From positions 1 to 35,102 of the forward strand of contig JBCCIM010000045.1 in assembly GCA_039111535.1 (NCBI GenBank): a stretch of DNA of 35,102 bases, read 5' to 3'. Positions 6,014-33,572 of the stretch are shown here, piece by piece (the stretch's first letter is position 1; each line of letters starts with the position of its first letter). The notes under the pieces were generated by a model, which saw only the letters and a list, made by a program, of their open reading frames with translations, had not been told where the DNA came from and did no database searches. Source of the DNA: Bacteroidota bacterium. GTDB taxonomy: Bacteria; Bacteroidota; Rhodothermia; Rhodothermales; JAHQVL01. The position numbers and the translations under genes are program-made.

Positions 6014-8611
6014 CTAATGTATCGTGTTTTGGATCAGCTCATTGAATGCATCGCGTTCACGGAGGGGGTCCCAGCGGGGGTCGACAGCAATCGAGGGCGG
6101 CAAGTCGCCGGCAGCGGCTGCGCGCTTGATCCATATCATGGCCTCGTCTAGTTCTCCCAGGTTTATGTAGATCAGAGAGATGCTCGTTGCGCCGTTTTTA
6201 CGGGTTGAGGTAAGGTATGCTTTTAGTTCATTCAGTTTTTCTTTGGCATCGGCGATATTGCCAGTTTTTGCATCCAGCTCGGCAAAGAAGCTTTCATTGT
6301 CGATACGATTCTCAGAACGGTCTAGCTGAATAGCTTTTGTAAATGCATTCTGAGCCAGCTCGTATTGATCCGATTGCAAGTACGCAAAAGCGAGGAGTTT
6401 ATACGCCCGCACAAAGTCCGGCTGTAGCGCCAACAAGGCATTTAACTCATCGATTGCTTTGTCGTATTCCCGGTTGTAGTAATAGGCGCGGCCTACGTCG
6501 CGGCGAATTTGCAGGGAAGTGGGCAGCAATTCCAGCGCTCGTTCGAGCGACAGGAGGCCTTCTTGAATTTTACCTTGCCGAAGCAAAAGTAATCCGTATT
6601 CGCGGTGGGCTTCGCTGTTGCCAGGGTTCAATTCCAGAGCGCGCAGAAAGGAGCGTGCGGCGCCATTATAATCGTTGTCGATGAGTTCGCGAACAACACC
6701 CATCGCAATGTGGGCTTCAGGGAGCGATTCATCGAGCTCGAGTGCATTGCCGGCTGAGCGCTTTGCCAACGCGTTGGCTGCCTCGGGGTGCATACGTTCG
6801 TATTTCTCACCCAGGAGGTACTGCGGTACAACGAGGCTAGCGTGCGCGCGGGCAAAACTGGGTTCCAGCAAAATGGCCCGGTTAAACAATGCGATTGCTT
6901 GCTCCAGGTGGTCCGGCGTTTCCCGCTCAAAATGGAATCTGCCCCGCAGGTACAGTTCAAAAGCTTCAGGATTGATAGCACTGATGTCTTCCGTTAACAC
7001 TTCGTTGCTCAGCGGAATGTCGAGTTTGTCTATGATATCCAGTGCAACATCATGAATAAGTATCTGGAGGTCTTCCTCGTCTTCCACGTGTGAGAGGGCC
7101 GTTACAACCCGCTCCGTCTCTGTTTCGAAGACATTGATGGCAATATGGATTTTGCCGTCTTGTCTGAAGACGTTGCCATTCAACTTCCAGGTCAGATCCA
7201 GGTTTTTAGCCAGATTATCCGACCCATCTGCTGTTTCGCTGTTTTGCACCAATGAAACAACCTTGAGCGCGTCAAAGCGGGTCAGTTCGTGGATTAATTC
7301 CTGCGTGACGCCGCTGTAGAAATAGATATCTTCATTGTTGATGTTAATGTCCTGCAACAACTCAATACCGATGGATTCAGGGCGCGCAGCCATTGAACTG
7401 CCCAATGGGTCCAGTTTGCTGATAAAGAACCCCGTGAGAATCAGCAGCATGATCACGGCCAACGTCGAAATTGGGCGTGTTACAACGGTAGTCTTGGCAA
7501 TTTGCAAGAAAGAGGACGATGGAAACGGCCCTGGCAGCAGCTGCCGCATCTCCCGAAGGAAAGCCGACATCGAGGGATAGCGATCATTTGGGTCGTTGCG
7601 TAAAGCCATCGCGGCGACCCGATGGAGGTGGGAAAATATTGCGGAGCCAGACGAAGAGCTTGTTGACCGGGAAATAGAGTCGTCAAGCGAAAGCCCGCCA
7701 TTGCTGGAACGATCGGGTTTTCTGCCATAAAGCATTTCATGCAATACAATACCTGTAGACCAGATATCTGCACGGAAGTCTGTCTTTTCACCACGTAGCT
7801 GCTCTGGAGGCATGTAGCCAACGGTGCCCATGATGCGCCCGGTGTCGTTTGGCAGTGGCCTGTCTATAAACGTGGCAAGGCCAAAGTCCACAATCTTGAC
7901 AATATCATCTTCGGTAATGATGATATTGCTCGGCTTGATATCGCGGTGCAAAACACCACGTTTGTGGGAAAACTCCAGTCCTTCAGCGATTTGCAAGGAA
8001 TAGCGCAATACCGTTTCAACGGGTAGCAAACCTTCAGAAAGCTTCGATTTGAGCGTTTGACCTTCATAAAAGGTCATGGCAATGAACAATTGCCCGTTCG
8101 AAGTTTCCCCAATTTCGTGGATAATGCCAATGTTAGGGTGGTCAAGAATGGACGCAGCTTTGGCTTCATGCACAAAGCGTTCGCGTGTTGCCGGATCTTC
8201 AACCAGGTTGGGCGACAGAAACTTGAGGGCAACGAACCGATCCAGTTGCAGGTCTTTGCCTTTATAGACAATTCCCATGCCGCCGCCGCCAATAACTTCC
8301 AGAATTTTGAAATTGGATACGGTTTTGCCAACGAGGCCAAACGGGTCTTTGGGCAGGCGTTTGTCGGTACTTATGTACTTGCCGTTGGGAATGGTAGGCT
8401 CGATCAGGGAATCGTAGTGCCCCGAGAATGCGTCGAGAATACTGTCGATGTCGTCGCCACTTTCAAGTAGCAACTGAACCTCCTGGCAAAGCGCAGGATC
8501 TTCATCGTTCATTGCATCCAGATAGGATTGCCGCTTGTTTGGCGGTAAATCCAGCACTGTTGACAGTAGCTCGTCAAGCCGCCTTAAATATTCAAGGCTT
8601 TGATCCGGCAT
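6014..8611 (-). CDS. Transmembrane Ser/Thr protein kinase with TPR repeats
   Basis: The 865-aa protein has a ~95-residue N-terminal helical region and a eukaryotic-like kinase domain (~99-360) with a Gly-rich loop at 108-113, Lys130 in V-A-L-K, H222-R-D224, Asn229, D242-F-G, and M-P-P-E at 267-270. All catalytic residues are intact. A Ser-rich stretch at 302-323 is a possible phosphorylation segment. One membrane helix lies at ~381-400. Beyond it, ~412-535 resembles the TolB-N/FlgO-like domain often seen in these kinases, and ~545-865 contains TPR repeats, probably extracytoplasmic. It is 272 bp downstream of an ECF sigma gene and upstream of the secreted propeller gene. The arrangement suggests a sensor that links an external signal to phosphorylation, possibly of the sigma factor; this is inference. 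Confidence 0.93.
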   Translation of the reverse strand: MPDQSLEYLRRLDELLSTVLDLPPNKRQSYLDAMNDEDPALCQEVQLLLESGDDIDSILDAFSGHYDSLIEPTIPNGKYISTDKRLPKDPFGLVGKTVSNFKILEVIGGGGMGIVYKGKDLQLDRFVALKFLSPNLVEDPATRERFVHEAKAASILDHPNIGIIHEIGETSNGQLFIAMTFYEGQTLKSKLSEGLLPVETVLRYSLQIAEGLEFSHKRGVLHRDIKPSNIIITEDDIVKIVDFGLATFIDRPLPNDTGRIMGTVGYMPPEQLRGEKTDFRADIWSTGIVLHEMLYGRKPDRSSNGGLSLDDSISRSTSSSSGSAIFSHLHRVAAMALRNDPNDRYPSMSAFLREMRQLLPGPFPSSSFLQIAKTTVVTRPISTLAVIMLLILTGFFISKLDPLGSSMAARPESIGIELLQDININNEDIYFYSGVTQELIHELTRFDALKVVSLVQNSETADGSDNLAKNLDLTWKLNGNVFRQDGKIHIAINVFETETERVVTALSHVEDEEDLQILIHDVALDIIDKLDIPLSNEVLTEDISAINPEAFELYLRGRFHFERETPDHLEQAIALFNRAILLEPSFARAHASLVVPQYLLGEKYERMHPEAANALAKRSAGNALELDESLPEAHIAMGVVRELIDNDYNGAARSFLRALELNPGNSEAHREYGLLLLRQGKIQEGLLSLERALELLPTSLQIRRDVGRAYYYNREYDKAIDELNALLALQPDFVRAYKLLAFAYLQSDQYELAQNAFTKAIQLDRSENRIDNESFFAELDAKTGNIADAKEKLNELKAYLTSTRKNGATSISLIYINLGELDEAMIWIKRAAAAGDLPPSIAVDPRWDPLRERDAFNELIQNTIH

Positions 8612-8770
8612 AAGTCGGCACGCGTTTAGGACAGCATGAAGCAGGACGGGGCCATCCTGATTCCCAAGGGAAGAGGGTTACAAAGCAGTCAACTGAAGGG
8701 TCCGTACAGGGTTGCCCACGAGTGGCAGAGGAGGTAGAGACGGGGTACAGTTAAATCAGGCGATAGCATA

Positions 8771-8786
8771 GTAACCCAGTGGTTAC
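8771..8786. promoter_or_regulatory. Small palindrome between sigma and kinase genes
   Basis: GTAACC-CAGT-GGTTAC is a perfect 6-bp inverted repeat with a 4-nt spacer in the 272-bp gap upstream of the kinase. It could be an operator or a short hairpin. Nothing else in this gap looks like a gene or terminator. Confidence 0.3.
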
Positions 8787-8883
8787 ATCTATCTTTAGTA
8801 TAAGTAATCCTGAGATTTTATTCTGCTTTACACCACTTATTCGTTCCAGAAAGGTGCTGAACCGCAACAACGCGTATAAAATG

Positions 8884-9489
8884 CTACGAATTATAGGTTT
8901 TTTCTATAGGGAGGGCGGGAATATGCTCTGCGATTAATGACCTGAACAGTAAAAGTTTGGCCCGGTTCAAATCTCTGTCTATTGTTCGGGTTGAAACGTC
9001 CATGTGTTTGGCAATTTCTTGAATAGACATTTGTTTGAAGAATCGCATTTCAATGACCTGGGCGAGGCGTGCATCGAAGGCGGCGAGTTGTTCAACGGCA
9101 AGTTTTAGCTCCATCGCCGGCGTTTCTGGCTCGCTGGCTACCTGTACAGCATCTCCGATGGGCAGCTTGTTCTTTCTGCCTTCTCGCTTGAGTGAATTCC
9201 GGTTACGGGCGTAATCAATCAGTGTGCGCTTCATGGTGCGTGAGAAGCTGCGGTAAAAATGCTCCCGGTTTTGCCACGAAGCAGAAGAAGAGAAAAGACG
9301 AAGATACGTTTCGTGTATCAGCCCATTAACAGAAAGTGTATGGTCATTACGCTCAGAAAGCATCATACGATCAGCGATCATATGAAGCTTTCTATAGATC
9401 AACGGCCAACGGCTATCATTTGGTGTTGCAGCGCCGTCTTGGGCTTTTTTGAGGAAGAGCGTAAGGTTATTTCCGTCTGAATACTGCAC
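8884..9489 (-). CDS. ECF sigma factor of the kinase-linked subgroup
   Basis: The 201-aa protein has region 2 at ~27-100, including the conserved L-I-H-E-T-Y-L-R-L helix at 57-65 and the R-T-L-I-D-Y-A-R-N segment, and region 4 at ~130-185 with a helix-turn-helix around 154-175 (S-I-Q-E-I-A then V-S-T-R-T-I-D-R-D). It matches the ECF subgroup common in Rhodothermota, Planctomycetota and Acidobacteriota that is encoded beside Ser/Thr kinases and usually has no classical anti-sigma gene. The start is a GTG with no clear Shine-Dalgarno sequence, so the exact N-terminus is uncertain. The neighbouring membrane kinase is the natural candidate for its regulator. Confidence 0.9.
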   Translation of the reverse strand: MQYSDGNNLTLFLKKAQDGAATPNDSRWPLIYRKLHMIADRMMLSERNDHTLSVNGLIHETYLRLFSSSASWQNREHFYRSFSRTMKRTLIDYARNRNSLKREGRKNKLPIGDAVQVASEPETPAMELKLAVEQLAAFDARLAQVIEMRFFKQMSIQEIAKHMDVSTRTIDRDLNRAKLLLFRSLIAEHIPALPIEKTYNS

Positions 9490-10828: not shown

Positions 10829-10980
10829 AGCTGGATGAGGCGGAAGGCTGATAAATCTGGCCTTGCGGCAGGCTACCTTGGTAACACGTTATCAAAGCTA
10901 ACCTAAAGCATTTGCCTCCCGACATGCCGAACAGCTTCGCTCTCCCAACGCCAACTACCTGCATCCCAAGCCACTCTAAA

Positions 10981-11595
10981 ATGCAGCTTGGCCTCAAGCA
11001 GCTCATCGAAGTAGGAATTGTACTGCTGGCTTTCCCACTCTGGTTTCCAATTTGCGCCATCATCTACCTCCTCATCTGGCTGGAAGACGGTAAGAACCCA
11101 CTCTTTATTCAGGAGCGCCTCGGGAAAGAGGGCAAAGGGTTTCGCACGTTCAAATTCAGAACGATGGTGCCGAATGCTGAAGAAGTCCTCAAAAAAGTAC
11201 TCGCCGAAGACGAAGAACTCCGTACCGAATGGGAAACCTTCTACAAGCTCCGCAAAGACCCTCGCGTAACACGCATTGGCAAATTCCTTCGCCGTACGAG
11301 CCTCGACGAGCTGCCGCAGCTCTTCAACGTACTGCTGGGCGACATGGGCATGGTTGGTCCGCGGCCACTCACTGCCTACCACCAGGATGTGCTGCCTGCA
11401 GATGTACGGGCACTCCGTGAGTCAGTAAAGCCGGGTATCACGGGTCTCTGGCAGGTTTCGGGCAGAAGCGACTCTGGCACCGAAGGCATGAAAAAATGGG
11501 ATCCTTACTACGTACGCAACTGGTCCATCAAGCTCGACGTGAGCATCCTTGTACGGACAGCCTTTGTCGTCATCGCTTGCAAAGGCGCTTACTAG
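10981..11595 (+). CDS. Monotopic phosphoglycosyl transferase (WbaP/PglC-type bacterial sugar transferase)
   Basis: The enzyme transfers a sugar-1-phosphate from a nucleotide sugar to undecaprenyl phosphate, starting glycan assembly at the inner membrane. The ATG at 10981 (204 aa) is chosen because the protein then aligns from its first residue with the paralogue at 26969-27586 (M-x-L-x-L-K...). Upstream starts at 10912 and 10924 would add a non-homologous tail. Residues ~6-30 form the re-entrant membrane helix. The core has F-K-F-R-T-M near 57-62, the catalytic dyad Asp109-Glu110 in [16 protein letters not shown], and P-G-I-T-G-L-W-Q. The C-terminal K-G-A-Y recalls WbaP-like enzymes, but the N-terminal domains of WbaP are absent. 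It stands alone, behind an unusual folded leader and before a strong terminator. Confidence 0.9.
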
Positions 11596-13657: not shown

Positions 13658-13803
13658 TTGAATCCCGGAATATTAATAAATTGTGAAGGCGTGTATGGTG
13701 TAGCGTGCTCCGGATCGACCATAAGGATCCCTTTCCCTTGGCCGAATAGGTATCGAATTCAATTTCTTAAGCGACTTGTGCGCAATAAAAAAGGAGGGTG
13801 TCT

Positions 13804-15927
13804 ATGAAAGTCTATGATGCAGATCACATCCGCAATGTCACCCTGGTAGGACACCAGGGCAGTGGCAAAACGATGTTGGCTGAAGCCATGTTGTTTAACG
13901 CGGGCGGACTTAATCGAATGGGAAATATTGCTGATGGGAATACGGTGAGTGATTACCATTCAAGCGAAATCGAACGGCAAATGTCGGTATTTTCTTCGCT
14001 CCTGCACGTAGAAAAAGATGGGCACAAAATTAACCTGCTCGATACTCCGGGGTATCCTGATTTTGTGGGGGAGGTTGTAACTTCCATGAAGGTTGCCGAT
14101 ACAGCTGCATTTGTTATCAATGCATCGGAAGGTGTACAGGTAGGTACCGAGTTGGCCTGGGCAACCGCAAACGCAGCTCAAATTCCGAGTATGTTTGTGC
14201 TCAACCATCTCGACAAGCCTGAAACCAACTTCGAAGAGCTTATTGATCAAATCCAGGGGCGTTTTGGGCGCGGCGCTACCGTTGTTCAAATCGCCGGCGG
14301 AAGCGGTTCCAGGTCGATCATCGACGTCCTGATCATGAAGCAAATTTCGTATCCGGATGACTCTGGCAAGCCGCAGTTTAACGACATCGATCCAGCCTTT
14401 CTGGAGCGGGCAGAGCAACTTCACAACGAACTCATCGAAAACATAGCTGAAAATGATGAGTCGCTGATGGAGCTGTACTTTGAAAAAGGCTCCTTGACTG
14501 AAGAAGAAATGCGGCAGGGACTTCATGAGGCAATGCTGAAGCGCCAGCTCTTCCCCATCTTCCTTACGAGTGCTACCGAAAATATTGGTGTATCTCGCCT
14601 GACAGATTTTATCTCGAATGTTTGTCCGTCTCCAGCTGAAATGCCAATGGCAGCAGTATCGGAAGGTGATCCGGTTGCGGCTGATGAGCATGGTAAGCCT
14701 GTTGCTTTTATTTACCGCACGATGGCTGAGCAGCACGTGGGTGAATATTCTTTCTTTCGGGTGTATTCGGGCACGCTTGAACCCGGGCTTGATCTGGAAA
14801 ATGCGCAGACCGGTTCAACGGAGCGTTTGGGGCAATTATTTGGCATCAACGGACGGGAGCGCGAGCCTGCCGCAAAAATGGTAGCCGGCGACATCGGCGC
14901 CCTTGTTAAATTGAAAAACTCGCATTCAAACAACACGCTGCGCAAGAAAGGAGAAAAAACGTCGATCAAACCGATCGTATTTCCAGAGCCGCGGTACACA
15001 ACAGCCATCCATGTTGTCAAGCAGGGGGAAGAAGACAAGTTGGCCCAGGGCTTACATGCACTCGCCAACGAAGACCCTTCGCTGATCCTTACCCAGGACC
15101 CACATCTTAATCAAATGCTGTTGGGTGGGCAAGGGGAGATGCATCTCGCAATTGCCAAGTACAGGCTGTCTAACCGATTTGGTGTAGATGTCGCTTATGG
15201 CAAACCCAAAATTTCATACCGCGAAACCATACAGGGTAAAGCCCGCTCTTCGTATCGACATAAAAAACAATCGGGTGGATCGGGGCAGTTTGCTGATATT
15301 TCGATGATGGTGGAAGCCCTTGATGGTCCGTTTAAGCCCCCCTCAGATATTACCGTGCGCGGGACAACAGAACTTACAACGGATTGGGGTGCGCGGGTCG
15401 AGTTTATCGACGGCATTGTTGGTGGGGTGATTGACATGCGCCGCTTTGCCGGCTCCATCCAGAAAGGTGTTATGGAGGCCATGCAAAAAGGGCCGATTGC
15501 CGGCTACCCGGTTGGTAATCTCCGCGTCATTGTGTTTGATGGCGGCATGCATCCCGTAGATTCGAATGATGCTGCGTTCAAGAGCGCCGGCCGCATGTGT
15601 TTCCGGGACGCATTCAAGCAGGCTTCCCCTGTGATTCTGGAGCCGGTGTGTAATGTGGAAGTGATGGTGCCAGACTCTTATACCGGTGATGTAATGGGCG
15701 ATCTCAACACGCGCCGTTCGAGAATCCAGGGCATCGAGTCTGAAGGATTGCTTCAGAAAATTCTGGCGCAGGTGCCCGAGGCCGAGCTCTACAGGTATTC
15801 AACGTCGCTACGCTCAATGACGCAGGGACGCGGTCTACATACGGCTTCTTTCTACCAGTATGAGGCTATGCCGCGGAATATTCAGGAGCAGCTGCAGAAA
15901 GAAAACGAAGAGGCTGTTGAAGCGTAA
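13804..15927 (+). CDS. Elongation factor G-like GTPase (EF-G paralogue, Bacteroidota type)
   Basis: ATG 13804 is chosen because a strong GGAGG lies at 13793-13797; an in-frame GTG at 13798 overlaps that site. The 707-aa product has EF-G domains I-V, but its G-domain differs from canonical EF-G. The P-loop is G-H-Q-G-S-G-K-T (16-23), G3 is D-T-P-G-Y-P-D-F (80-87) where canonical EF-G has D-T-P-G-H-V-D-F, and G4 is N-H-L-D (134-137) rather than N-K-x-D. The catalytic His is thus replaced by Tyr. The family matches the second EF-G of Bacteroidota, not the housekeeping FusA. I recall that a Bacteroides EF-G paralogue supports translation without GTPase activity; whether this is its orthologue is inference. 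A terminator follows. Confidence 0.92.
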   Translation: MKVYDADHIRNVTLVGHQGSGKTMLAEAMLFNAGGLNRMGNIADGNTVSDYHSSEIERQMSVFSSLLHVEKDGHKINLLDTPGYPDFVGEVVTSMKVADTAAFVINASEGVQVGTELAWATANAAQIPSMFVLNHLDKPETNFEELIDQIQGRFGRGATVVQIAGGSGSRSIIDVLIMKQISYPDDSGKPQFNDIDPAFLERAEQLHNELIENIAENDESLMELYFEKGSLTEEEMRQGLHEAMLKRQLFPIFLTSATENIGVSRLTDFISNVCPSPAEMPMAAVSEGDPVAADEHGKPVAFIYRTMAEQHVGEYSFFRVYSGTLEPGLDLENAQTGSTERLGQLFGINGREREPAAKMVAGDIGALVKLKNSHSNNTLRKKGEKTSIKPIVFPEPRYTTAIHVVKQGEEDKLAQGLHALANEDPSLILTQDPHLNQMLLGGQGEMHLAIAKYRLSNRFGVDVAYGKPKISYRETIQGKARSSYRHKKQSGGSGQFADISMMVEALDGPFKPPSDITVRGTTELTTDWGARVEFIDGIVGGVIDMRRFAGSIQKGVMEAMQKGPIAGYPVGNLRVIVFDGGMHPVDSNDAAFKSAGRMCFRDAFKQASPVILEPVCNVEVMVPDSYTGDVMGDLNTRRSRIQGIESEGLLQKILAQVPEAELYRYSTSLRSMTQGRGLHTASFYQYEAMPRNIQEQLQKENEEAVEA

Positions 15928-15968: not shown

Positions 15969-16003
15969 AAAGCCCTTCTCGATCTCCTCGAGAAGGGCTT
16001 TGC
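15969..16003 (+). terminator. Rho-independent terminator after EF-G-like gene
   Basis: A perfect 13-bp stem (15970-15982 with 15988-16000) with a TCTCC loop lies 42 bp after the stop codon. The T-run after it is short, and A-rich sequence on the left may also serve the minus-strand tRNA. Confidence 0.85.
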
Positions 16004-16043
16004 TGTACAGATTAGTACAGAAGTAGGGTACTGAATTTTAATG

Positions 16044-16117
16044 TGGCGAGAGAGGGATTTGAACCCTCGACCTCCGGGTTATGAATCCGACGCTCTAACC
16101 ACCTGAGCTACCTCGCC
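16044..16117 (-). tRNA. tRNA-Met (anticodon CAT)
   Basis: The minus strand folds as a complete cloverleaf: acceptor GGCGAGG with TCTCGCC (one G-T pair), D-stem GCTC/GAGC, anticodon loop TTCATAA, T-stem GAGGG/CCCTC with loop TTCAAAT, and discriminator A. The CCA end is not encoded. The normally paired 1-72 position (G-C) and the overall sequence fit an elongator tRNA-Met rather than the initiator. A tRNA-Ile with a lysidine-modified CAT anticodon cannot be fully excluded by eye. Confidence 0.93.
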
Positions 16118-18514: not shown

Positions 18515-18919
18515 CTAGCCCAGTAGATCGTCCAGGTTGTCGATGCCCTCAATGTCATCCAGAATGTCGTCGGCTGAGGGACGAACCAGCGCGAGAATGG
18601 CGCTATGCGGGACAATCACGTATTCCTTTTCCCGGAATGTTACCTCAATCATTTCTTTGCGCAGGAAGAACGCAAGATCCCCAGGTTGTGCCTGTAGCGG
18701 CAGATAACGCGCTGCACTGCGCGACGTAGCCCATGGCTCTCCATCCGAATATTCGGGATTGGGCATAACATAACCAGGTCCTACCCGCACAATTCTGCCG
18801 ATACTGACTCGCTCGCGGTCAACAACTGTAGCCGGCAGGTAAAGTCCGGACTTGGTTTGTTTTTCTCCCCCTTCCTGTTCGATCAGTACACGATCACCAA
18901 TGATGATGATTTCTTCCAT
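18515..18919 (-). CDS. GroES-like co-chaperonin family protein, orphan and enlarged
   Basis: I choose ATG 18919 (134 aa); a TTG at 18949 would add ten residues without similarity to the family. The start I-I-I-I-G-D-R-V-L-I matches the Cpn10 first strand, and T-K-S-G-L-Y-L-P (around 23-30) matches the mobile loop that binds GroEL. The next strands (I-G-R-I-V-R-V-G-P-G) and the end (V-P-H-S-A-I-L-A-L-V) also fit. Between them is a ~30-residue insertion (N-P-E-Y-S-D-G-E-P-W...), and the C-terminus is an acidic tail (D-D-I-L-D-D-I-E-G-I-D-N-L-D-D). It is not next to a groEL gene, so it is a paralogue rather than the main GroES. Confidence 0.85.
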   Translation of the reverse strand: MEEIIIIGDRVLIEQEGGEKQTKSGLYLPATVVDRERVSIGRIVRVGPGYVMPNPEYSDGEPWATSRSAARYLPLQAQPGDLAFFLRKEMIEVTFREKEYVIVPHSAILALVRPSADDILDDIEGIDNLDDLLG

Positions 18920-18963
18920 GATGCAGCGGTCAAATTTGCTAGACGACAATACTTTAAAATAAC

Positions 18964-24493: not shown

Positions 24494-25591
24494 TCAGCTG
24501 GTCTGTGCTACAAAATCGGCTTCAAACAGCGCAGTTTTGAGGCGCTCCTGCGCTTGGGCTGCTGCAAGGGCTTGCAGGAAATCGATGCGTTCATCCAGTT
24601 CGAGCCGGCTGAAAATGGCCGGTCCATTCAGGCCCAGGATATCGCGATGTGGGGTAGTTAACGGTGTTTCATTGGCTGACCAGAGCTGTTCACGCATCTT
24701 TTCGCCAGCCCGCACGCCGATAAATTTAATGGGGATGTCTTTCTGCGGTGCCAGTACATCAATCATGCGCTGGGCAAGCGTCAGAATTTTCACAGCAGGA
24801 TCCATCCGCAAGGTAAACACGGGCGCAGTACTGTAAAGCAATGTCTGCAGAATCAAACAGCAGGCGTCGTCAACGCCCATGAAAAAGCGTTCCATGTCAG
24901 CATGGGTTACCGTAACCGGACCACCCTCCAGTATCTGCTCGATAAACGTTGGTACGACACTGCCCAGGCTCCCGAACACATTACCAAAACGGACGGTTTT
25001 GGTTCGCATGGTGCCATTGGCAGCTCGAACATACCATTCCGTGAGGCGCTTGGTTGTACCCATTACGCTGCTTGGGTCGACCGCTTTATCTGTCGAGATA
25101 AAAATGAACTGCTCAACGCTGTGTTGTTCAGCAGCCCTGAGCAGGTTTACAGACGCGAGGGTGTTGTTTTCAAAAGCCTGCACGGGATGGAATTCCATCA
25201 TCGGTACGTGTTTGTAGGCTGCTGCGTGGAAAATCACCTGGGGTGCGTGTTCATCGAGCAGTTGATCAACGGCAGTGGTGTGGCGAACATCAACCAGTTT
25301 GAAAACGAGTTCAATATCGGGATTGTGTTTACGGAGCGACTGTTCAAGGCGGAAAAGATGGAATTCGCTAAAATCAACAAGGATCAGTTTGGTCGGCTTC
25401 AGGTCTAGCAGTTTTTTTGCTAAGACGCGGCCAATTGACCCTCCTGCACCGGTAAGCATCACACACTGCTTGCGCAAATGTGCGCGCAATGCATCAACAT
25501 CAACCTGCGCCGGCGCACGGTCCAGCAGGTGCTCGATGCGCAAAGCCGACGGGGCCAATGGGTGAAATGAAGAGCCTTCGTGATGTAACAT
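24494..25591 (-). CDS. CapD/FlaA1-like NDP-sugar 4,6-dehydratase (soluble short form)
   Basis: The 365-aa protein is an extended SDR. NAD(P)-binding T-G-A-G-G-S-I-G lies at 47-54, H-A-A-A-Y-K-H-V-P-M-M-E at 122-133, I-S-T-D-K-A-V-D-P around 165-173, and catalytic-type Met177-x3-Lys181 in V-M-G-T-T-K-R. These match the UDP-GlcNAc 4,6-dehydratase/polysaccharide biosynthesis family, which uses M-x3-K instead of Y-x3-K. The N-terminal membrane domain of full-length CapD is missing, so it is a cytosolic form. It would supply a 4-keto-6-deoxy amino sugar, a substrate for the DegT-type aminotransferase encoded upstream in the same gene set. Confidence 0.9.
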   Translation of the reverse strand: MLHHEGSSFHPLAPSALRIEHLLDRAPAQVDVDALRAHLRKQCVMLTGAGGSIGRVLAKKLLDLKPTKLILVDFSEFHLFRLEQSLRKHNPDIELVFKLVDVRHTTAVDQLLDEHAPQVIFHAAAYKHVPMMEFHPVQAFENNTLASVNLLRAAEQHSVEQFIFISTDKAVDPSSVMGTTKRLTEWYVRAANGTMRTKTVRFGNVFGSLGSVVPTFIEQILEGGPVTVTHADMERFFMGVDDACCLILQTLLYSTAPVFTLRMDPAVKILTLAQRMIDVLAPQKDIPIKFIGVRAGEKMREQLWSANETPLTTPHRDILGLNGPAIFSRLELDERIDFLQALAAAQAQERLKTALFEADFVAQTS

Positions 25592-25718
25592 CAGTGCTTC
25601 CGGGAGTCGAACAATAAAAAATGAATGGAAAAACGCACAGGTAAAACGCCCTGCGTCTTCTCTTTTTATTACGTCAGGTTTTTACGACGTCAGAAAATGA
25701 ATCAAAACCCATACCGAA

Positions 25719-26933
25719 CTATGTCAACTCTCCTTGCGGCAGTGCACATTGACGAAGAATGGTTTCCAGTTGAAGGGCCATTTTCGAGCGGTCAAACAGC
25801 TCGGCAGCGATTGTAGATCCGTTTTTGCCGGCTGTAGAAAGCAACCCGGGATCGTCTATCACATTTTCTATACAACGAACAAGTGCTTCAGGTTCTTCCC
25901 AAGGTGCGTACCACCCGCAGTTGTGTTTTGCGACAAATGCCCGTGTCCATCCCGGATTGGTGACAATAACCGGTGTACCTGCTGCGAGGCTATCAAAAAA
26001 CTTCGCTGGCGAGTTGGTTGCAAGAACCGGCAGATTGATAAAGGATACCAGCGATACCGTAGCTGCACGAAACCAGTCGAAAACCTGGTGTCGGGGCGCT
26101 GCTTCTATCAAACTCAAGTTCTGTTGTGCCGCAACAGCCCTGCGTATATGCGCCTCAAAGAAGCCACTGCCCAGCAATACAAAATGTATGTCTTCTCGGT
26201 GTTGCAGGGCGCTGCTGGTTTCAAGTATCTGCGGTATTGCATTGGCGCGTCCGAGGGTGCCGGCATACAGCACTATTTTTTTGCCGGCAAGGCCATGGGC
26301 CTGGCGTAACGCATCTCCGGCAGTGGTATCTGTGGTGTTGGCAAAGTTCAGGTCCGTACCGTTAAGCAAGACCGAGATTTTGTCATCGCCGACCCCTTTC
26401 TCTGCGATGTGTGACGCCATGTCTGGCGAGAGGGCAATATTATGTGCGGCACCACTGTACAGATTTTCTTCAATTTTGTAGAGGCGCCGGCGCAACCAAC
26501 CGTGTTTGATGGCTCCCATTTGAATGGGGAAATCCGGCCAGAGGTCACGGACTTCGAAAACCCACGGAATGCGGCGAAAACGGGCAACTTTTGCAGCGGC
26601 CCATGCTGCAGTGAGCGGAGTTGAGCTACCGATGATGACATCAGGTCGGTCAATTTTAAGCCCTTGCCAGAAGGCTTTCCACATGTAGCCGGCGTAAGCT
26701 TTTAACCGGGCAGCGTTGCCCATGGCATTTTCGTATGGCACGGCAAGTTGATGCACTTCTACCCCGGGTGGTGCCCACGCAAAGTTGTTTGTTTGCCTTT
26801 TCTTCTGCCAGATATCCGATGTAATGATGCTGACGCGGTGATTTTTACTCAACGCCTTTACAAACTGGAAATGCCGGCCACTGGCTGCACAATCAGGATT
26901 ATGGTAATACTGATAAAAAAGCAGAATATGCAT
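25719..26933 (-). CDS. Glycosyltransferase family 4 (WbuB-like)
   Basis: The 404-aa protein has a GT-B fold. The N-terminal domain begins M-H-I-L-L-F-Y-Q-Y-Y and carries the T-P-L-T-A-A segment and F-E-V-R-D-L-W-P-D (126-134), typical of WbuB-like fucosamine/GlcNAc transferases. The C-terminal domain has V-L-Y-A-G-T-L-G-R (~219-228), S-P-A-K-F-F-D-S-L-A-A-G-T-P-V-I, and a conserved acidic region. It should add a sugar to the lipid-linked glycan at the cytosolic face. The phosphoglycosyl transferase that would make its acceptor ends 35 bp upstream, so the two are probably co-transcribed. Confidence 0.92.
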   Translation of the reverse strand: MHILLFYQYYHNPDCAASGRHFQFVKALSKNHRVSIITSDIWQKKRQTNNFAWAPPGVEVHQLAVPYENAMGNAARLKAYAGYMWKAFWQGLKIDRPDVIIGSSTPLTAAWAAAKVARFRRIPWVFEVRDLWPDFPIQMGAIKHGWLRRRLYKIEENLYSGAAHNIALSPDMASHIAEKGVGDDKISVLLNGTDLNFANTTDTTAGDALRQAHGLAGKKIVLYAGTLGRANAIPQILETSSALQHREDIHFVLLGSGFFEAHIRRAVAAQQNLSLIEAAPRHQVFDWFRAATVSLVSFINLPVLATNSPAKFFDSLAAGTPVIVTNPGWTRAFVAKHNCGWYAPWEEPEALVRCIENVIDDPGLLSTAGKNGSTIAAELFDRSKMALQLETILRQCALPQGELT

Positions 26934-26968
26934 TGGGTGCTGGCTGGAAATCCGGGCGATGGTTGGAA

Positions 26969-27586
26969 TCAGATCGGCGACTCAACAGGCAACTCTTCAG
27001 CGCCCACAAAATCAACATTTTGACCACGGGGGCCGTAGGTGTTCTCTTTGCCGTTCAACAGGCTAAACGGCGTGCGCAATAAGATGCTGGTGTCCTTAAT
27101 CAGGTTGGCCTGTTCGATATATTCAACATCCAATTGAATGCGTTGCGGCCAGTCGATGGCGTTTCTGCCATGGATTTGGGCCCAGCCTGTAATGCCGGGG
27201 CGCATGTCGAGTCGCTGCTTTTCAAAGGGGCCATACTGTGCCACTTGTTCGGGAATTGTTGGACGCGGCCCTACGATACTCATGTCTTTTTTGAGCACGT
27301 TAAACAACTGCGGCAACTCATCGATGCCCCAACGCCGCATGAAGCTGCCAAATGGGGTGACCATGGCTTGCGGATTTGTTACTTCGTGTGCGCCCTGGTA
27401 TAAGGTCCTGAATTTGTAAATCCAGAATCGCTGTCCCTTAAGGCCAACGCGTTCCTGTTTGAAGAAAATGGGCCGGCCGCTTTCAAGCAGGATAGCCAGC
27501 ATGATCACCAAAAATAACGGGGAAAAAAGGATGAGAAGCGCAAGGGCCAGAAGTACATCAGCAGTTCTTTTCAGTATGAGATACAT
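26969..27586 (-). CDS. Monotopic phosphoglycosyl transferase (PglC/WcaJ-type)
   Basis: The 205-aa enzyme should transfer a sugar phosphate to undecaprenyl phosphate to start the glycan. It has a re-entrant helix at ~6-32, I-Y-K-F-R-T-L at 56-62, the Asp-Glu dyad at 89-90 (R-W-G-I-D-E-L-P-Q-L, with Gly-Ile replacing the usual Ser-Leu), V-G-P-R-P, and P-G-I-T-G-W-A-Q. It is a paralogue of the enzyme at 10981-11595 but has a longer acidic C-terminus. It sits between the aminotransferase and the GT4, as expected for the initiating enzyme of this locus. Confidence 0.93.
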   Translation of the reverse strand: MYLILKRTADVLLALALLILFSPLFLVIMLAILLESGRPIFFKQERVGLKGQRFWIYKFRTLYQGAHEVTNPQAMVTPFGSFMRRWGIDELPQLFNVLKKDMSIVGPRPTIPEQVAQYGPFEKQRLDMRPGITGWAQIHGRNAIDWPQRIQLDVEYIEQANLIKDTSILLRTPFSLLNGKENTYGPRGQNVDFVGAEELPVESPI

Positions 27587-27623
27587 AGACTTGAGAATAG
27601 AAGTGCAGTAGAGAGGGTACGTA

Positions 27624-27690
27624 CAAACAAATCAATCCTCCGGGAATTATTTGTTTGTTGTTAAAGGTTACAAGTTCAAGGTTGCAGGTT
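27624..27690. repeat. Partial copy of the purF-end repeat (palindrome plus heptamer array)
   Basis: CAAACAAATCAATCCT (27624-27639) and AATTATTTGTTTG (27645-27657) form a palindrome. It is followed by TTAAAGGTTACAAGTTCAAG and another ~10 nt that read as AACCTTN-type heptamers on the minus strand. About 80% of positions match the element at 19747-19883, in reverse orientation, but the second terminus is missing. Confidence 0.6.
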
Positions 27691-27835
27691 TTTCTTATGC
27701 TAGACGCACAGATGCGGTATTGCCTCGCAAAAGGCTTGCCGTATAATGCTGGTTCACACGGTAAAGTGCCAATGACTCAACCGTTTATAGCGGTCTTGTA
27801 CCATAAAAAGCCGGTCATTTCAACGTTCCCAATCA

Positions 27836-29026
27836 TCAGAAAGTCTTTACTTTTTTAGGGAGTTGCGGAAGTATATCACCCAGGATGTCGCCTATCGTAA
27901 AGATCTGTCCGGGCAGCAAAGCGGGATAAAAAGGAAGCGCCAGGCTTCGATTCGAAATAGACTCGCAAACAGGGAAATCGCCTGTTTTGTATCCAAATCG
28001 CTCCCGATAATAAGGTTGCAAATGTATGCTGGGGAAATAGGATGCACACCCTATGCCTCTTTCACGCAGAAGTTTCAGGGCAAGGTCCCGGGCATCGTCT
28101 GTAAAGTCTTCTCTTAATCGGATCACGTACACAAACCAGCTACGCGTTACGGGTAGCTGGTTTTTTCCCGTTACGTTGGGCATGGTTGTGGGCGTCGCCG
28201 GCAATATGAGACTTTCAACGTAAGGTTCGAGCGCTTCCGTATATGCTGTTGCAACGCGTTCCCTCGCGGCCAGTAATCCAGGCAATCGCTCTAGCTGCGC
28301 ACAGCCCAGTGCTGCTGCCAGTTCATCCATTCTGTAGTTGTAGCCGAGGCGTACGTGCTCCATGCGCTCGCGAACAGCGCGGCCCTGGTTGCGCATCGAG
28401 CGGCACAGTTCGGCAAGGGTGTCGCTGTTTGTGGTGATGCACCCGCCTTCGCCGGTTGTCATTTGTTTGTTCGGATAAAAACCAAAGGCAGCCGCATCGC
28501 CCCAGGCCCCAATTGGGGTGTCTCCAATACGTGCGCCAGGCGCCTCACAGGCGTCGTCGATCAGGTGCAATCCGTGTTGCGTTGCCAACTCCTGGAGAGC
28601 CGGCCAGGGGGCAGGTGCCCCGAAAACATCTATCCCCAGAATCCCTTTTGTAGCAGGCGAGATCGCTGTCTGAAGCTGCTCCATATTAAAAGAAAGGGTA
28701 GCCGGGTCAATATCAACAAACCTGGGGTGGGCATTTTCAAAAAGCAGGCAGTTGCTCGATGCTATAAAACTAAACGGTGTGGTAACTACTTCATCGCCGG
28801 CGCCTATACCCAGGCTCTTTACAATTAGGTGCAATGCAGATGTGCCACTGTTAACCGCTACGGCGTGCTTGACTCCACAAAATGCCGCCATCTGGGCCTC
28901 AAACTGATCAAGCATTGGCCCCAGTGCCAGCCGAGATGAGTTGAGCACGCGCATGACATATTCCCGCTCTTTGGTGCCGATATTGGGTTTCGACAAAGGG
29001 ATAGATTCAGGGGAGCTTTTTGACAT
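27836..29026 (-). CDS. DegT/DnrJ/EryC1/StrS PLP-dependent sugar aminotransferase
   Basis: Starting at ATG 29026 the protein has 396 aa; ATG 29032 and an upstream start at 29062 are also open. The family signatures are S-K-P-N-I-G near the start, H-A-V-A-V-N-S-G-T-S-A-L-H-L, T-P-F-S-F-I-A-S-S-N, I-D-D-A-C-E-A-P-G, and the PLP Lys187 in F-Y-P-N-K-Q-M-T-T-G-E-G-G. Such enzymes aminate 4-keto or 3-keto nucleotide sugars. With the CapD-like dehydratase in the same cluster it would make a 4-amino-6-deoxy sugar. It lies 249 bp upstream of the phosphoglycosyl transferase, a gap that contains a repeat. Confidence 0.93.
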   Translation of the reverse strand: MSKSSPESIPLSKPNIGTKEREYVMRVLNSSRLALGPMLDQFEAQMAAFCGVKHAVAVNSGTSALHLIVKSLGIGAGDEVVTTPFSFIASSNCLLFENAHPRFVDIDPATLSFNMEQLQTAISPATKGILGIDVFGAPAPWPALQELATQHGLHLIDDACEAPGARIGDTPIGAWGDAAAFGFYPNKQMTTGEGGCITTNSDTLAELCRSMRNQGRAVRERMEHVRLGYNYRMDELAAALGCAQLERLPGLLAARERVATAYTEALEPYVESLILPATPTTMPNVTGKNQLPVTRSWFVYVIRLREDFTDDARDLALKLLRERGIGCASYFPSIHLQPYYRERFGYKTGDFPVCESISNRSLALPFYPALLPGQIFTIGDILGDILPQLPKKVKTF

Positions 29027-29297
29027 ATGCATCACGATAAAGGGGGGCTGGGTAAGCACCACCTGTTAAGATGTGAGAAATCGCACGAATAAAAGAACAG
29101 TTGCGGGCATTGTTTCGTATCAGACCGCATTGATAAAAGATTTGAACCAGGATTATCGCTGTTCTTCCAAAATATGGGTCCACATTTCTCTGTTTGATCT
29201 TTGTATGCCTGATTTCTGTTTGTCTGATTATTGTTTGAAGGTCCGTTGCCGCCAGATATCCAGATTGATGCTTTATGCCTTGTAAATCGTCCGGTTG
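29027..29297. other. Divergent intergenic region between aminotransferase and SLBB gene
   Basis: No gene is seen. The stretch near 29190-29240 holds two imperfect ~15-bp direct repeats (GTATGCCTGATTTCT and GTTTGTCTGATTATT, 11 of 15 matches). Promoters for both divergent polysaccharide units must lie here or just to the right. Confidence 0.5.
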
Positions 29298-29326
29298 TTG
29301 CCGGCACATGATATTTATCCTATAAG
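29298..29326 (+). promoter_or_regulatory. Candidate promoter for the SLBB export gene
   Basis: TTGCCG at 29298-29303 and TATAAG at 29321-29326 are separated by 17 bp and match 4 of 6 and 5 of 6 consensus bases. The predicted start is near 29333, giving a leader of about 140 nt. Confidence 0.45.
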
Positions 29327-29435
29327 AAACGCTATTCAGAAGAAACACCATCCGTGACGAACATAATTTAGCGTTTCTCACATCATACAATGCGCCAAAA
29401 ACTGATGACAACACACTGATAGCATTTGGCGCATT
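29325..29435. promoter_or_regulatory. Two consecutive inverted repeats in the SLBB leader
   Basis: AGAAACGCTA (29325-29334) pairs with TAGCGTTTCT (29369-29378), and AATGCGCCAAA (29389-29399) pairs with TTTGGCGCATT (29425-29435). Both are perfect. The first overlaps the predicted -10 box and transcript start, and the second lies wholly in the leader, 35 bp before the ATG. They may be operators or RNA hairpins controlling export gene expression. Confidence 0.4.
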
Positions 29436-29470
29436 GGCTTAGCATTGCTCGCAATACTTCATTTTTATTG

Positions 29471-32400
29471 ATGCATAACGTAAAATTTTCTCAAGCCTGT
29501 CCATTGTTCATTGTATTTGCCTGCCTGGTATTGGTTAGCAGTTTTTCTGCAGCCACCGCCCAGGCCCAGGAGATTCCCGAATCGATCCAGCAGCAACTTC
29601 GCCAAAACGGTATGAGTGCCGACGAAGCCCGGCGGGAAGCGCTGCGACTCGGTATAGATCTGTCTGACCCGGAAGCAGCAACAGCGCGTGCGCGGCAGCT
29701 AGGTGTACCGGAATCGTTAATCCAGCAAATGCTCACCGCTATCGCTGACGAAGAGGAAATGGGGCGAACGGTCCCAACTGATGGCATCGTAGATCGCGAA
29801 GTGCCAAGCCTGGCCGGCCGGCCTATCATTTCTCCCGAAGTACTCTACGTCCCTGACCAGGACCCGCTCTTGTTGCCAACTCCCGATCTTGATGCTGAAC
29901 TTGGCTTCCAGAACATTGTCGGTGATACCGTGCTGGTTCGCGTGCCGTTAAAAGATGACCTTTCTGGCATCAATGTAGCCGATTTCTTTTTTGTTGATGC
30001 CGCCCAGGAAGACACCCTGTATGCCTTTAGCGTGCGCCGCGTGCTTGGGAGTAAATACGAAGGCATGTGGCAAGCTTTGTTCATCGTATCACCCGACACT
30101 AAATCAGATGATTGGCTGCTGCTGGTTAATGCAATTGATGAAAGTGGGAACGACAACATCATCGACACCGAAGAAGTGTTGCGCGTGCGCAGGGAAGGTG
30201 AAGAACTGGTAGACGCTGATACGGCAGCGGTGGCTGATAGCCTGATTCACTTTGGGTATGATCTGTTCTTTATTCGTCCGGAAATGTTTGAGCAGGCGCC
30301 CGTAGGCCCTGTTGATGAGGGGTACGTAGTTGGGCCCGGCGATGAACTGCGGCTTATTGTGTTTGGTGCAGCAGAATTCCAGCACGACCTTGAAGTGGAT
30401 CCTGAAGGACGCATTTTTGTGCCAAATGTGGGCCAGCGGGTAGTGGCCGGCAGCCGGCTTTCGTCGCTGCGAGAAGACATTCGCATCTGGTTAGGGCGTA
30501 GTTACGCCGGTCTCCTCACCGAGCCACCTGAGGTGCTGATGGACCTGACCGTCAAGCGGTTGAAACCGGTCAATGTGTTTGTGCTTGGCGAGGTTGGAAA
30601 GCCTGGCCGTTTTCCGCTGGCAAGCAATTCTACCGTATTCAATGCATTGTACTCTGTTGGGGGCCCACAAACATCAGGGAGCTTGCGTGATGTACAGGTC
30701 ATCCGCCGTGGCCGCGTCACCTATTCCGTTGACCTTTACGAGTACCTGTTGAAAGGATATTCTTCGGGTGATGTACAACTTCGCTCGAATGATAACGTGT
30801 TTATCCCGCCCCGCGGCAAGACGGTTACTATAAAGGGTGAAGTACATCGGCCGGCTATTTATGAGTTGAAAGGCCGGGAGACATTCCAGGATTTACTCTC
30901 TTTTGCCGGCGGGCTAAAAGCTGAAGCATACACCCGTCGTTTCCAGATTGAACGCGTGGTGCCTTTTGAAGACCGCGCTGATCCGTTGCAAGTGCGCACC
31001 GTACTCGACTTTAATCTCGCCGAGATCCTCCGCGGAGACGCCGGCGTTGCAATTGAAGACGGTGACGTTGTAACCATTTTTTCTATTCCCGAATCATCAA
31101 ACCTGGCAGCGTTAAGCAAGGTGCGCGCAGCCAGTGTGAATGGCGCTGTTTTTAGTCCGGGTACCTATGAGTTGACCGGACAGGTACGCACGCTGCGAGA
31201 ACTCATCCAGCAGGCAAATGGCCTCACCGGAGACGCTTTTCTCGGCAAGGTGGAGCTGTATCGGTTGACGGAAGACCTGAAAAAACAGGTGGTCTCGCTC
31301 AACCTCGATGAAATCATGCAGGATGTGCCGACCCAGAATCTGGTACTACAGCCACAAGATAGCCTCTATATCTATTCAACCCAGGTGCTCCAGCAAATCC
31401 CCGTTGTAAACATCTCGGGACAGGTTCGGACACCCGGACAGTTTGACCTGCTCGAGAATATGTCGGTGGTCAACCTGCTCTATAAAGGTGGAGGCTTACG
31501 CGATCCGGAGTATCTGAAAAATGTCTTTAAAGATCGGGCCGATCTATTTCGTAAAAGTGCAGACGGACGGTCAGAAGAAATTATACCGTTTCATCTTGGC
31601 GAGGCCCTTGAAGGCCGTGGTTACGGTGCTGAGCTGCTACAGCCCGGTGATGAAATTCGCATCTACCCACTGGAAGTAGAAGTATTACGAGAGCCCTACG
31701 TCGAGATTTCAGGTGCGGTTAAAAAGGAAGGCCAGTTTCGCTTCCGGGAAGGCATGACGCTGGAAGACCTGATCTTGCAAGCCGGCGGATTTGAAGAAGG
31801 CGCTTACCTGCAGGAAGTAGAAGTGACGCGGTTGGATTCTACTCGAAGTATCAATGAGCTGGCAACCAGTATTCAGGTGCCGTTTGTGGCACTAGACCAA
31901 AATTCAAATCCTTCTTTTGGCGTAGTCGAGGGGCTCCCTGATCGCTCGAGACCTGCTCGTCAATTTCAGTTGCAGCATCTCGACAGGGTATACGTCCGAC
32001 TGGATCCGGGCTTTCGCGAGCAGCAGATTGTCACCATTAATGGGGAAGTCCAATTCCCGGGTACCTATACATTGCTCCGCGAGAACGAGACGCTGACTGA
32101 AATTATTCGACGCGCAGGAGGCGTGTTGCCAACCGGATACCCGAAAGGGGGGCGGCTATTACGCGAGAATTTGCAGGTGATTGTGGAGATGGATAAAGCA
32201 CTCGCCGGCAACTATGACGCAGACATGATTATGCTACCGGGGGATGAAGTTGTGATTCCTTTGCAGCCCAATACGGTAGCTGTCCGTGGTAACGTTGCCA
32301 ACGAAGGGCTGATCAAATATGAGCCTGGTCGGCGATTGACGTATTACCTGGATCGGGCAGGGGGGCGCCGGCCTGAAAGCGAAGCGGTACTGCTCACACA

Positions 32401-32608
32401 GGCGTCCGGCGCAACCTTTAGCGTCCGCCGCAGAGGATTGTTCAAGAAAAACCCTGTTGTAGACGAAGGCGCCCGTATCCTCGTAACCCGGCAACAACCC
32501 AAAGAGCCCGGAGAACGGGTTGATGTAGGCCGGACCATTATCGAAAGCGTAGGCATCATTTCGAGCGCCTTGACAATTGTCGTCCTCGCCAGGCAGGCGT
32601 TTAATTAG
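29471..32608 (+). CDS. Large SLBB-domain polysaccharide export outer-membrane protein (OPX/Wza-like)
   Basis: ATG 29471 (1045 aa) is chosen because it gives a typical signal peptide ending A-A-T-A-Q-A-Q near residue 33; an open frame from 29426 would mask it. After a helical segment (~36-97) and an immunoglobulin-like insert (~145-245), the polysaccharide export domain begins at ~285 (Y-V-V-G-P-G-D-E-L-R-L). Seven SLBB-like units follow, each opening with a G-x-V-x3-G pattern near residues 369, 451, 553, 645, 743, 852 and 936. A hydrophobic C-terminal helix (~1022-1040) precedes the end. The size is nearly three times that of E. coli Wza (about 380 aa). It should form the outer exit channel for the polysaccharide made by this locus. 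The stop codon overlaps a MITE-like repeat. Confidence 0.93.
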   Translation: MHNVKFSQACPLFIVFACLVLVSSFSAATAQAQEIPESIQQQLRQNGMSADEARREALRLGIDLSDPEAATARARQLGVPESLIQQMLTAIADEEEMGRTVPTDGIVDREVPSLAGRPIISPEVLYVPDQDPLLLPTPDLDAELGFQNIVGDTVLVRVPLKDDLSGINVADFFFVDAAQEDTLYAFSVRRVLGSKYEGMWQALFIVSPDTKSDDWLLLVNAIDESGNDNIIDTEEVLRVRREGEELVDADTAAVADSLIHFGYDLFFIRPEMFEQAPVGPVDEGYVVGPGDELRLIVFGAAEFQHDLEVDPEGRIFVPNVGQRVVAGSRLSSLREDIRIWLGRSYAGLLTEPPEVLMDLTVKRLKPVNVFVLGEVGKPGRFPLASNSTVFNALYSVGGPQTSGSLRDVQVIRRGRVTYSVDLYEYLLKGYSSGDVQLRSNDNVFIPPRGKTVTIKGEVHRPAIYELKGRETFQDLLSFAGGLKAEAYTRRFQIERVVPFEDRADPLQVRTVLDFNLAEILRGDAGVAIEDGDVVTIFSIPESSNLAALSKVRAASVNGAVFSPGTYELTGQVRTLRELIQQANGLTGDAFLGKVELYRLTEDLKKQVVSLNLDEIMQDVPTQNLVLQPQDSLYIYSTQVLQQIPVVNISGQVRTPGQFDLLENMSVVNLLYKGGGLRDPEYLKNVFKDRADLFRKSADGRSEEIIPFHLGEALEGRGYGAELLQPGDEIRIYPLEVEVLREPYVEISGAVKKEGQFRFREGMTLEDLILQAGGFEEGAYLQEVEVTRLDSTRSINELATSIQVPFVALDQNSNPSFGVVEGLPDRSRPARQFQLQHLDRVYVRLDPGFREQQIVTINGEVQFPGTYTLLRENETLTEIIRRAGGVLPTGYPKGGRLLRENLQVIVEMDKALAGNYDADMIMLPGDEVVIPLQPNTVAVRGNVANEGLIKYEPGRRLTYYLDRAGGRRPESEAVLLTQASGATFSVRRRGLFKKNPVVDEGARILVTRQQPKEPGERVDVGRTIIESVGIISSALTIVVLARQAFN

Positions 32609-32706
32609 GCTTTGTCTGAAAAATCCGCAATTAACGCAGACAAAGCCGTATCCTGAGCGAATGCGAAGGATCTAACAAAGCAGAACTGGATTTTCAGACA
32701 AAGCCT
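32607..32706. repeat. MITE-like 100-bp element with ~20-bp terminal inverted repeats
   Basis: AGGCTTTGTCTGAAAAATCC (32607-32626) and GGATTTTCAGACAAAGCCT (32688-32706) are reverse complements apart from one extra A. An inner GCAGACAAAGCC copy and a hairpin ATCCT...AAGGAT (32650-32672) lie between. The left end overlaps the TAG stop of the SLBB gene. It could also act as a terminator-like hairpin. Confidence 0.65.
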
Positions 32707-32739
32707 GGTCTAAGGTTTAAAGTTGGGCGCGCTCACCTA

Positions 32740-32760
32740 AACCTTCAACTTGTAACCTAT
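32740..32760. repeat. Third heptamer array at a gene end
   Basis: AACCTTC-AACTTGT-AACCTAT is a three-unit heptamer run of the same type as at 19818-19838 and 27660-27690. Its last unit contains the stop codon of the GT2 gene (minus). AAGGTTTA at 32712-32719 is an inverted partner of TAAACCTT at 32738-32745. Confidence 0.5.
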
Positions 32761-33572
32761 TTCGTGTAATTGCCGACGAGTTCGAAGGCCATCTTCGCGA
32801 TGTCCATACCGATGCCGTAAGGGACGAGAAAAAATTTCGATACGCCTTCTGCGTTTTTCCAGACTACGCGTGGGCGGTGGAACGTGGTTTTATACCGGAA
32901 GCGTAGCCTGTTTTTGATAGAGGTTCTGTGTTTGCGGTATCGGTAGACAATAGCCGGCGCTGCTGTGATGTTATCTGTCTGTTTGAGGCAGCGCAGCGAA
33001 TAGTCAATGTCCTGGCAGCGGGTGAGCCGCACATCAAAGTCGCCGGCCCGTTCTACAAGTGCACGGGAGAGTAGGCAGGTGTTCAGCGAGAATGGCGTTT
33101 TGTAGGCCATCAGAATGCTACGCTTCAACTGCTCGGGGTTCTCGCTAGAGGGTTCATTCCTGACGCCCAATACACCCCTTGTGTCAAATACCTCAAAGCC
33201 ACCGATAATCATGTCTGGCTGGCTGCCATTGGTCGGATACCGCGATGACAGGCTGTGCGGTGTAAACTCATCATCCGCATCCAGAATGGTTACGTAGCTG
33301 CCCCGTGCCATTTTTAGGCCTTTGTTCACGGCTGAGGCTTTCCCTTTGTTTTCCTGATGCACGTAGTGTACCCGCGCGTCGTAAGCAGCATGTTTGGGAT
33401 TGACAAACGATGCCAATACCTCGGTCGTTCGATCGGTAGAACCATCATCAATCACAAGCACCTCAAGCTCCTTAAAGTTACCCTCAAGGATCGAAGCAAC
33501 TGCCCGGCCGACATAATCACCCATGTTATAGGCCGGTATGATTACGCTAACTTTAGGAATACCGTTTTCCAT
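32757..33572 (-). CDS. Glycosyltransferase family 2
   Basis: The 271-aa protein has a GT-A fold beginning V-S-V-I-I-P-A-Y-N, with nucleotide-binding I-D-D-G-S (41-45), the metal-binding D-A-D-D (98-101), and the acceptor-side Q-D-I-D-Y region near 195, close to the usual E-D-x-D motif. There is no long membrane segment, so it acts at the cytosolic face. Its start overlaps the end of the preceding GT2 gene by 20 bp, so the two are translated from one message. The sugar it transfers cannot be named. Confidence 0.92.
   Translation of the reverse strand: MENGIPKVSVIIPAYNMGDYVGRAVASILEGNFKELEVLVIDDGSTDRTTEVLASFVNPKHAAYDARVHYVHQENKGKASAVNKGLKMARGSYVTILDADDEFTPHSLSSRYPTNGSQPDMIIGGFEVFDTRGVLGVRNEPSSENPEQLKRSILMAYKTPFSLNTCLLSRALVERAGDFDVRLTRCQDIDYSLRCLKQTDNITAAPAIVYRYRKHRTSIKNRLRFRYKTTFHRPRVVWKNAEGVSKFFLVPYGIGMDIAKMAFELVGNYTK

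Follow-up and report, generated by a model that had tools for sequence, protein, structure and literature searches.

A Rhodothermales EF-G paralogue placed by sequence and phylogeny with Bacteroides EF-G2, with which it shares a domain IV insertion

The stretch of Rhodothermales DNA analysed here over its whole length of 35,102 nucleotides (the window) contains a gene that sequence comparison and phylogeny identify as the Rhodothermales orthologue of Bacteroides EF-G2. By profile match, diagnostic residues and tree position, its product belongs to the known subfamily EFG II and is not a new family. As judged from the alignments, it is an insertion in domain IV, more than the tyrosine at the site of the catalytic histidine, that ties the protein to the GTPase-less Bacteroides factor. 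It is proposed, with confidence about evenly divided, that the window protein is an EFG II auxiliary translocase whose ribosome-stimulated GTP hydrolysis would probably be weak or absent, a biochemistry that we infer from sequence. GTP hydrolysis by EF-G is a main cost of translation, and we know of no EF-G other than Bacteroides EF-G2 that has been reported to work without it. PMC10294740, citing Han et al. 2023, states that this factor “enables GTP-independent translation”.

A continuous open reading frame with zero internal stops runs on the plus strand from 13798 or 13804 to 15927, and its product is EF-G-like, with EF-G domains I–V all present according to Pfam. The ATG at 13804 is the likely start and is preferred over the GTG at 13798, because AAAGGAGG lies 6 nt upstream of it and the N-terminus that it gives, MKVYDADHIRN, matches the start of Bacteroides EF-G2 in the alignment. 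Residue numbers are counted from GTG 13798 (709 aa) unless stated otherwise. The features are as follows, all on the plus strand.

13790..13797, plus strand: putative ribosome-binding site AAAGGAGG, read in the sequence
13804..15927, plus strand: EFG II gene (fusA2-like), 707 aa from ATG (open reading frame; NCBIfam NF009381)
13849..13872, plus strand: G1 / P-loop, GHQGSGKT (EF-G I: AHIDAGKT), from the alignment
13972..13989, plus strand: G2 / switch I, ERQMSV (EF-G I: ERGITI), from the alignment (Margus 2011, PMC3150367)
14041..14064, plus strand: G3 / switch II, DTPGYPDF, with Tyr86 (14053-14055) at the catalytic His site, from the alignment
14203..14214, plus strand: G4, NHLD, from the alignment
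15253..15291, plus strand: domain IV tip loop I (YRHKKQSGGSGQF), carrying the pair of Lys that EFG II conserves, from the alignment
15328..15387, plus strand: 20-residue domain IV insertion PFKPPSDITVRGTTELTTDW, residues 511-530, found also in Bacteroides EF-G2 but in neither EF-G I nor other EFG II, from the alignment
15550..15576, plus strand: domain IV tip loop II, HPVDSNDAA, containing the His that translocating EF-Gs conserve (His585), from alignments
15970..16001, plus strand: inverted repeat AAGCCCTTCTCGA..TCGAGAAGGGCTT 3' of the stop codon, putative terminator, read in the sequence

The inverted repeat is, from its sequence, likely a terminator. Just past it and the EFG II gene lies a tRNA-Met (CAT) on the minus strand (16043-16117), ahead of holB and ricT; this tRNA is the sole match in an Rfam scan of the window. 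The G3 sequence D-T-P-G-Y-P-D-F, the G4 sequence N-H-L-D and the switch segment R-Q-M-S-V all read as the original prediction had given them. Additionally, the P-loop has Gly where EF-G I has Asp, and Ser63 takes the place of the Mg-coordinating Thr, as across EFG II. As shown by the alignments, the predicted protein is a complete five-domain EF-G in which the nucleotide-binding motifs and the tip loops are intact and the P-loop Asp and the switch II His are lost. These motifs are neither a product of chance nor a sequencing error, because 29 of the 30 genomes compared from this order, among them that of the window, have an orthologue, Tyr occupies the switch II site in every Rhodothermales orthologue examined, and an intact canonical EF-G is present in the same genome.

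This canonical EF-G has RGITI, DTPGHVDF, NKMD and the P-loop Asp and is located in an rpsL-rpsG-fusA (str) operon. It resembles the window protein in its five-domain build, with 36% identity, but RGITI, DTPGHVDF and the str-operon location are all missing from the window gene, which is therefore a true second EF-G and not the housekeeping copy. The sole genome of the order in which the orthologue was not found is an 83%-complete assembly. Taking a best match better than 1e-150 as the criterion, about 111 of 148 Bacteroidota genomes have an EFG II. The named relatives at 62–69% identity come from Rhodothermales or from unclassified Bacteroidota metagenome assemblies. In most Rhodothermales loci having enough flank, tsaB-accD adjoin the gene, and this fixed position indicates vertical inheritance; recent horizontal gain, which was also considered, is unsupported, as the gene follows Rhodothermales. 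One contig from the comparison, JAJCYR010000091.1 (233570 bases), appears as a whole to be a self-inverted duplication, in which EFG II, fusA and a further match recur at mirrored positions whose coordinates sum to about 233571; it is probably an assembly artefact.

Several lines of evidence place the window protein in EFG II. It scores 839 bits against NCBIfam NF009381 (cut-off 583), and the trees separate the EFG II clade from EF-G I with support of 100/100, or 99/99 when Tet proteins are added. The change of G2 from RGITI to xxxSx, a hallmark of the subfamily (Margus et al. 2011), is present as RQMSV with Ser63. Among the diagnostic residues described in that work (PMC3150367), all six type I positions carry the expected Gly, Leu, Ser, Thr, Gly and Lys/Arg (G18, L27, S63, T308, G352, K371). 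The type II positions (D, V, L, K, K, E, G), which are majority and not absolute features, agree in five of seven cases, I254 standing in place of V and Q555 in place of E; at one of the seven, Bacteroides EF-G2 departs from the pattern as well.

The original prediction took the Tyr in place of His as an argument for the loss of GTPase activity, and this argument fails. In a survey of about 150 EFG II sequences from Bacteroidota, Acidobacteriota, Actinomycetota and a few others, whose rows are not all independent, the switch II site holds Tyr in 105, Thr in 19, Phe in 14, Leu in 7, Ser in 4, Met in 2, Pro in 1, Ala in 1 and His in none, vs. His in 21 of 21 EF-G I. A residue other than His is the rule throughout EFG II, and Tyr is ordinary there. 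The Thr occurs in several EFG II branches and Phe or Leu elsewhere, so the residue changed several times within the subfamily. A Sinorhizobium EFG II sequence in the tree with Tet proteins likewise has no His; its branch is very long.

Two characterised factors of the subfamily carry the same Tyr. T. thermophilus EF-G2 (PDB 1wdt/2dy1) has DAPGYGDF, as checked over the whole chain, and has also lost the P-loop Asp, but it has no domain IV insertion and sits on a distant branch outside the insertion-bearing clade. According to PMC3832671 its GTPase is ribosome-dependent and it has some poly(U) activity, whereas PMC3150367 reports a higher intrinsic GTPase activity instead. M. smegmatis EF-G2 (PDB 9k0z, ribosome-bound) has DTPGYADF, likewise without the insertion, and in PMC3832671 its ribosome-dependent GTPase is reported absent. 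Since of these two Tyr-bearing factors one is reported active and the other inactive, Tyr is not diagnostic, and it was rejected as proof of GTPase loss. In IF2, the exchange of His for Tyr at the equivalent switch II site abolished ribosome-dependent hydrolysis and left alcohol-stimulated, ribosome-independent hydrolysis in place (PMC7037019). The Tyr therefore makes a weak GTPase plausible in the window protein without showing it.

The domain IV insertion is distributed differently. The stretch that contains it is 42 residues long in the window protein, 42–44 in all Rhodothermales orthologues examined, 42 in many other Bacteroidota EFG II and 51 in the EF-G2 of Bacteroides, Parabacteroides and Prevotella (the insertion being 29 residues in Bacteroides). 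In every other EFG II seen, T. thermophilus EF-G2 included, it measures 20–22 residues, and in EF-G I usually 22, apart from a few loops that are longer (up to 35) but unrelated. Among 84 insertion-bearing sequences, Trp530 is invariant (84/84) and Arg521 nearly so (83/84), from which it follows that the insertion is under constraint. In the AlphaFold prediction it forms an extra beta strand (residues 517-525 of the 707-aa protein), and the confidence is good, with a pLDDT of 84–89 for the block. A careful tree, built without the insertion columns and without the G3 columns, unites the bearers in one clade (100/98, bootstrap / SH-aLRT), with one change in 100% of the bootstrap trees. Bacteroides EF-G2 is nested among other Bacteroidota and Rhodothermales form another branch; a larger quick tree agrees.

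A 26-residue region unique to Bacteroides EF-G2 is said, in the 2023 work of Han et al., to cause the absence of GTPase activity and to be needed for function. In a pairwise comparison with T. thermophilus EF-G, the sole large insertion of Bacteroides EF-G2 is the one in domain IV, split into stretches of 9 and 20 residues. Being the only large insertion over EF-G I, it is, by elimination, probably the 26-residue region. The literature search found no paper that names this 26-residue region, and none that names 9k0z. GTPase loss can also come about without the insertion, because M. smegmatis EF-G2 is reported to have no ribosome-dependent GTPase and has no insertion.

The B. thetaiotaomicron EF-G2 is the product of fusA2 (BT2167) and the protein of PDB 7uvp and 8dmf. 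The top sequence match of the window protein in the PDB is 7uvp (620 bits vs. 459 for EF-G I), and the top fold match is 8dmf, the ribosome-bound B. thetaiotaomicron EF-G2, with a TM of 0.93, ahead of all EF-G I structures. In the phylogeny with Bacteroides EF-G2 and FusA, which had been suggested as a check, the window gene falls in one clade with Bacteroides EF-G2, apart from EF-G I. The kinship with a Bacteroides paralogue that was suggested in the original prediction is thus borne out by common family, by the single insertion-bearing clade (bootstrap 100 / SH-aLRT 98) and by the closest structure, while the reasoning from Tyr that led to it is not. The score against NCBIfam NF058620 EFG2_Bacteroid is 807.6 bits, below the cut-off of 1000, so that the gene is an orthologue by descent that stands outside the narrow Bacteroides EF-G2 group. 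The two proteins share 44% identity, the insertion site, the conserved Arg and Trp within it and the lack of a catalytic His. Nevertheless, the Bacteroides insertion is 9 residues longer, and Bacteroides EF-G2 has a private DCPGSDDF (with Ser at the His site) and EYGYSV, seen among the sequences compared only in Bacteroidales members and both missing from the window protein.

Bacteroides EF-G2 is induced in starvation via a BT4338 site of the TATGTT-N4-AACATA type. No BT4338-type site with up to three mismatches was found in the window, and none upstream of the gene in 26 sequences, window included; nor was a CRP-like site found upstream. The starvation link is therefore without support here, and control by a BT4338 or CRP-type site was dropped as a candidate; another regulator is possible.

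In the proposed mechanism, the GTP-bound window protein would enter the A site, stabilise the translocated state by binding and catalyse tRNA-mRNA translocation. GTP hydrolysis on the ribosome would be weak or absent, and the release of the protein would be independent of it. Working beside the housekeeping EF-G, the protein could sustain translation that is slow but costs less energy, as has been reported of Bacteroides EF-G2. A translocase is favoured because the tip loops and the conserved His585 are kept. The GTPase-less part of this proposal has evidence against it: T. thermophilus EF-G2, which shares the Tyr and the loss of the P-loop Asp, is reported active, though it has no insertion, and the window insertion is shorter by 9 residues and is accompanied by neither DCPGS nor EYGYSV. 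That no BT4338-like or CRP-like site was found upstream also weighs against the preferred reading.

In a neighbouring explanation, ribosome-dependent hydrolysis is slow, as in T. thermophilus EF-G2, and the window protein is a low-activity translocase whose insertion alters ribosome contact and not hydrolysis. It is possible, but it is entertained only tentatively. The Thermus factor, which has the same Tyr and P-loop change and is reported GTPase-active in PMC3832671, speaks for it, as do the nucleotide-binding motifs, which are all kept, with Ser63 for Mg, and the variation of activity between EFG II lineages. However, that factor lies outside the insertion-bearing clade and has no insertion, and the IF2 exchange of His for Tyr abolishes ribosome-dependent hydrolysis (PMC7037019). 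An unlikely explanation is that of a regulatory or stress factor which binds, protects or stalls ribosomes and does not translocate. M. smegmatis EF-G2, with its Tyr, provides the precedent, since PMC3832671 gives it no ribosome-dependent GTPase and yet it is seen bound to the ribosome in 9k0z. Against this, the window protein retains both tip loops as well as the His that translocating EF-Gs conserve, and it is far closer to the translocating Bacteroides EF-G2 than to actinobacterial EF-G2.

Paralogues of EF-G may also sub-functionalise into dedicated ribosome-recycling factors of the spdEFG2 or mitochondrial EF-G2 kind, as noted in PMC3832671. For the window protein this is very improbable. 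In the PDB sequence comparison, mitochondrial EF-G2 (7l20) matches at 272 bits vs. 620 for Bacteroides EF-G2, and spdEFG2 is a subfamily distinct from EFG II (PMC3150367, PMC4342817). A ribosomal protection protein of the tetracycline-resistance type, EF-G-like in itself, can for practical purposes be discounted and was rejected by model score (273 bits vs. a cut-off of 775) and by the tree, where Tet(36) and Tet(S), which retain RGIT and DTPGH, stand in a clade of their own. The grouping with a tetracycline-resistance clade that had been named beforehand as evidence against the Bacteroides link was accordingly not seen. The label of PDB 7uvp, which has the Bacteroides EF-G2 sequence, could be taken in favour of a Tet protein, but it is contradicted by 8dmf, an identical sequence deposited as EF-G2. 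The 7uvp label reads “Tetracycline resistance protein TetQ” and would mislead if annotation were transferred from this entry.

The sequences compared here separate two candidate causes of GTPase loss: the loss of the switch II His, which is general in EFG II and extends to a factor with reported activity, and the domain IV insertion, which is confined to one clade. This separation makes the GTPase-off switch testable with a few purified proteins, one of them from outside the gut (Rhodothermales). The shared insertion also sharpens the hypothesis of energy-sparing translation beyond gut Bacteroides. It may be, though we regard it as rather doubtful, that the insertion has a single origin, in the ancestor of those Bacteroidota that bear it (Rhodothermales and the Bacteroides lineage), and marks a clade of non-hydrolysing translocases. 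If true, energy-sparing translation would be an old and widespread trait of the phylum and not an invention of gut Bacteroides.

Other parts of the window contain further features. An ECF-type sigma factor (TIGR02999) adjoins a Ser/Thr kinase with a TPR tail at 6014-9489, and this pairing suggests phosphorylation-controlled sigma activity. A second bacterial sugar transferase (PF02397) stands alone at 10912-11595, with the sigma factor on one side and accD on the other. Next to ricT, positions 18515-18949 encode a 144-aa protein that matches Cpn10 in part; a homologue lies between holB and purF in locus L061. Positions 24494-34443 hold a polysaccharide export/synthesis cluster with an epimerase, glycosyltransferases, a sugar transferase, a DegT aminotransferase and a 1060-aa SLBB-repeat export protein.
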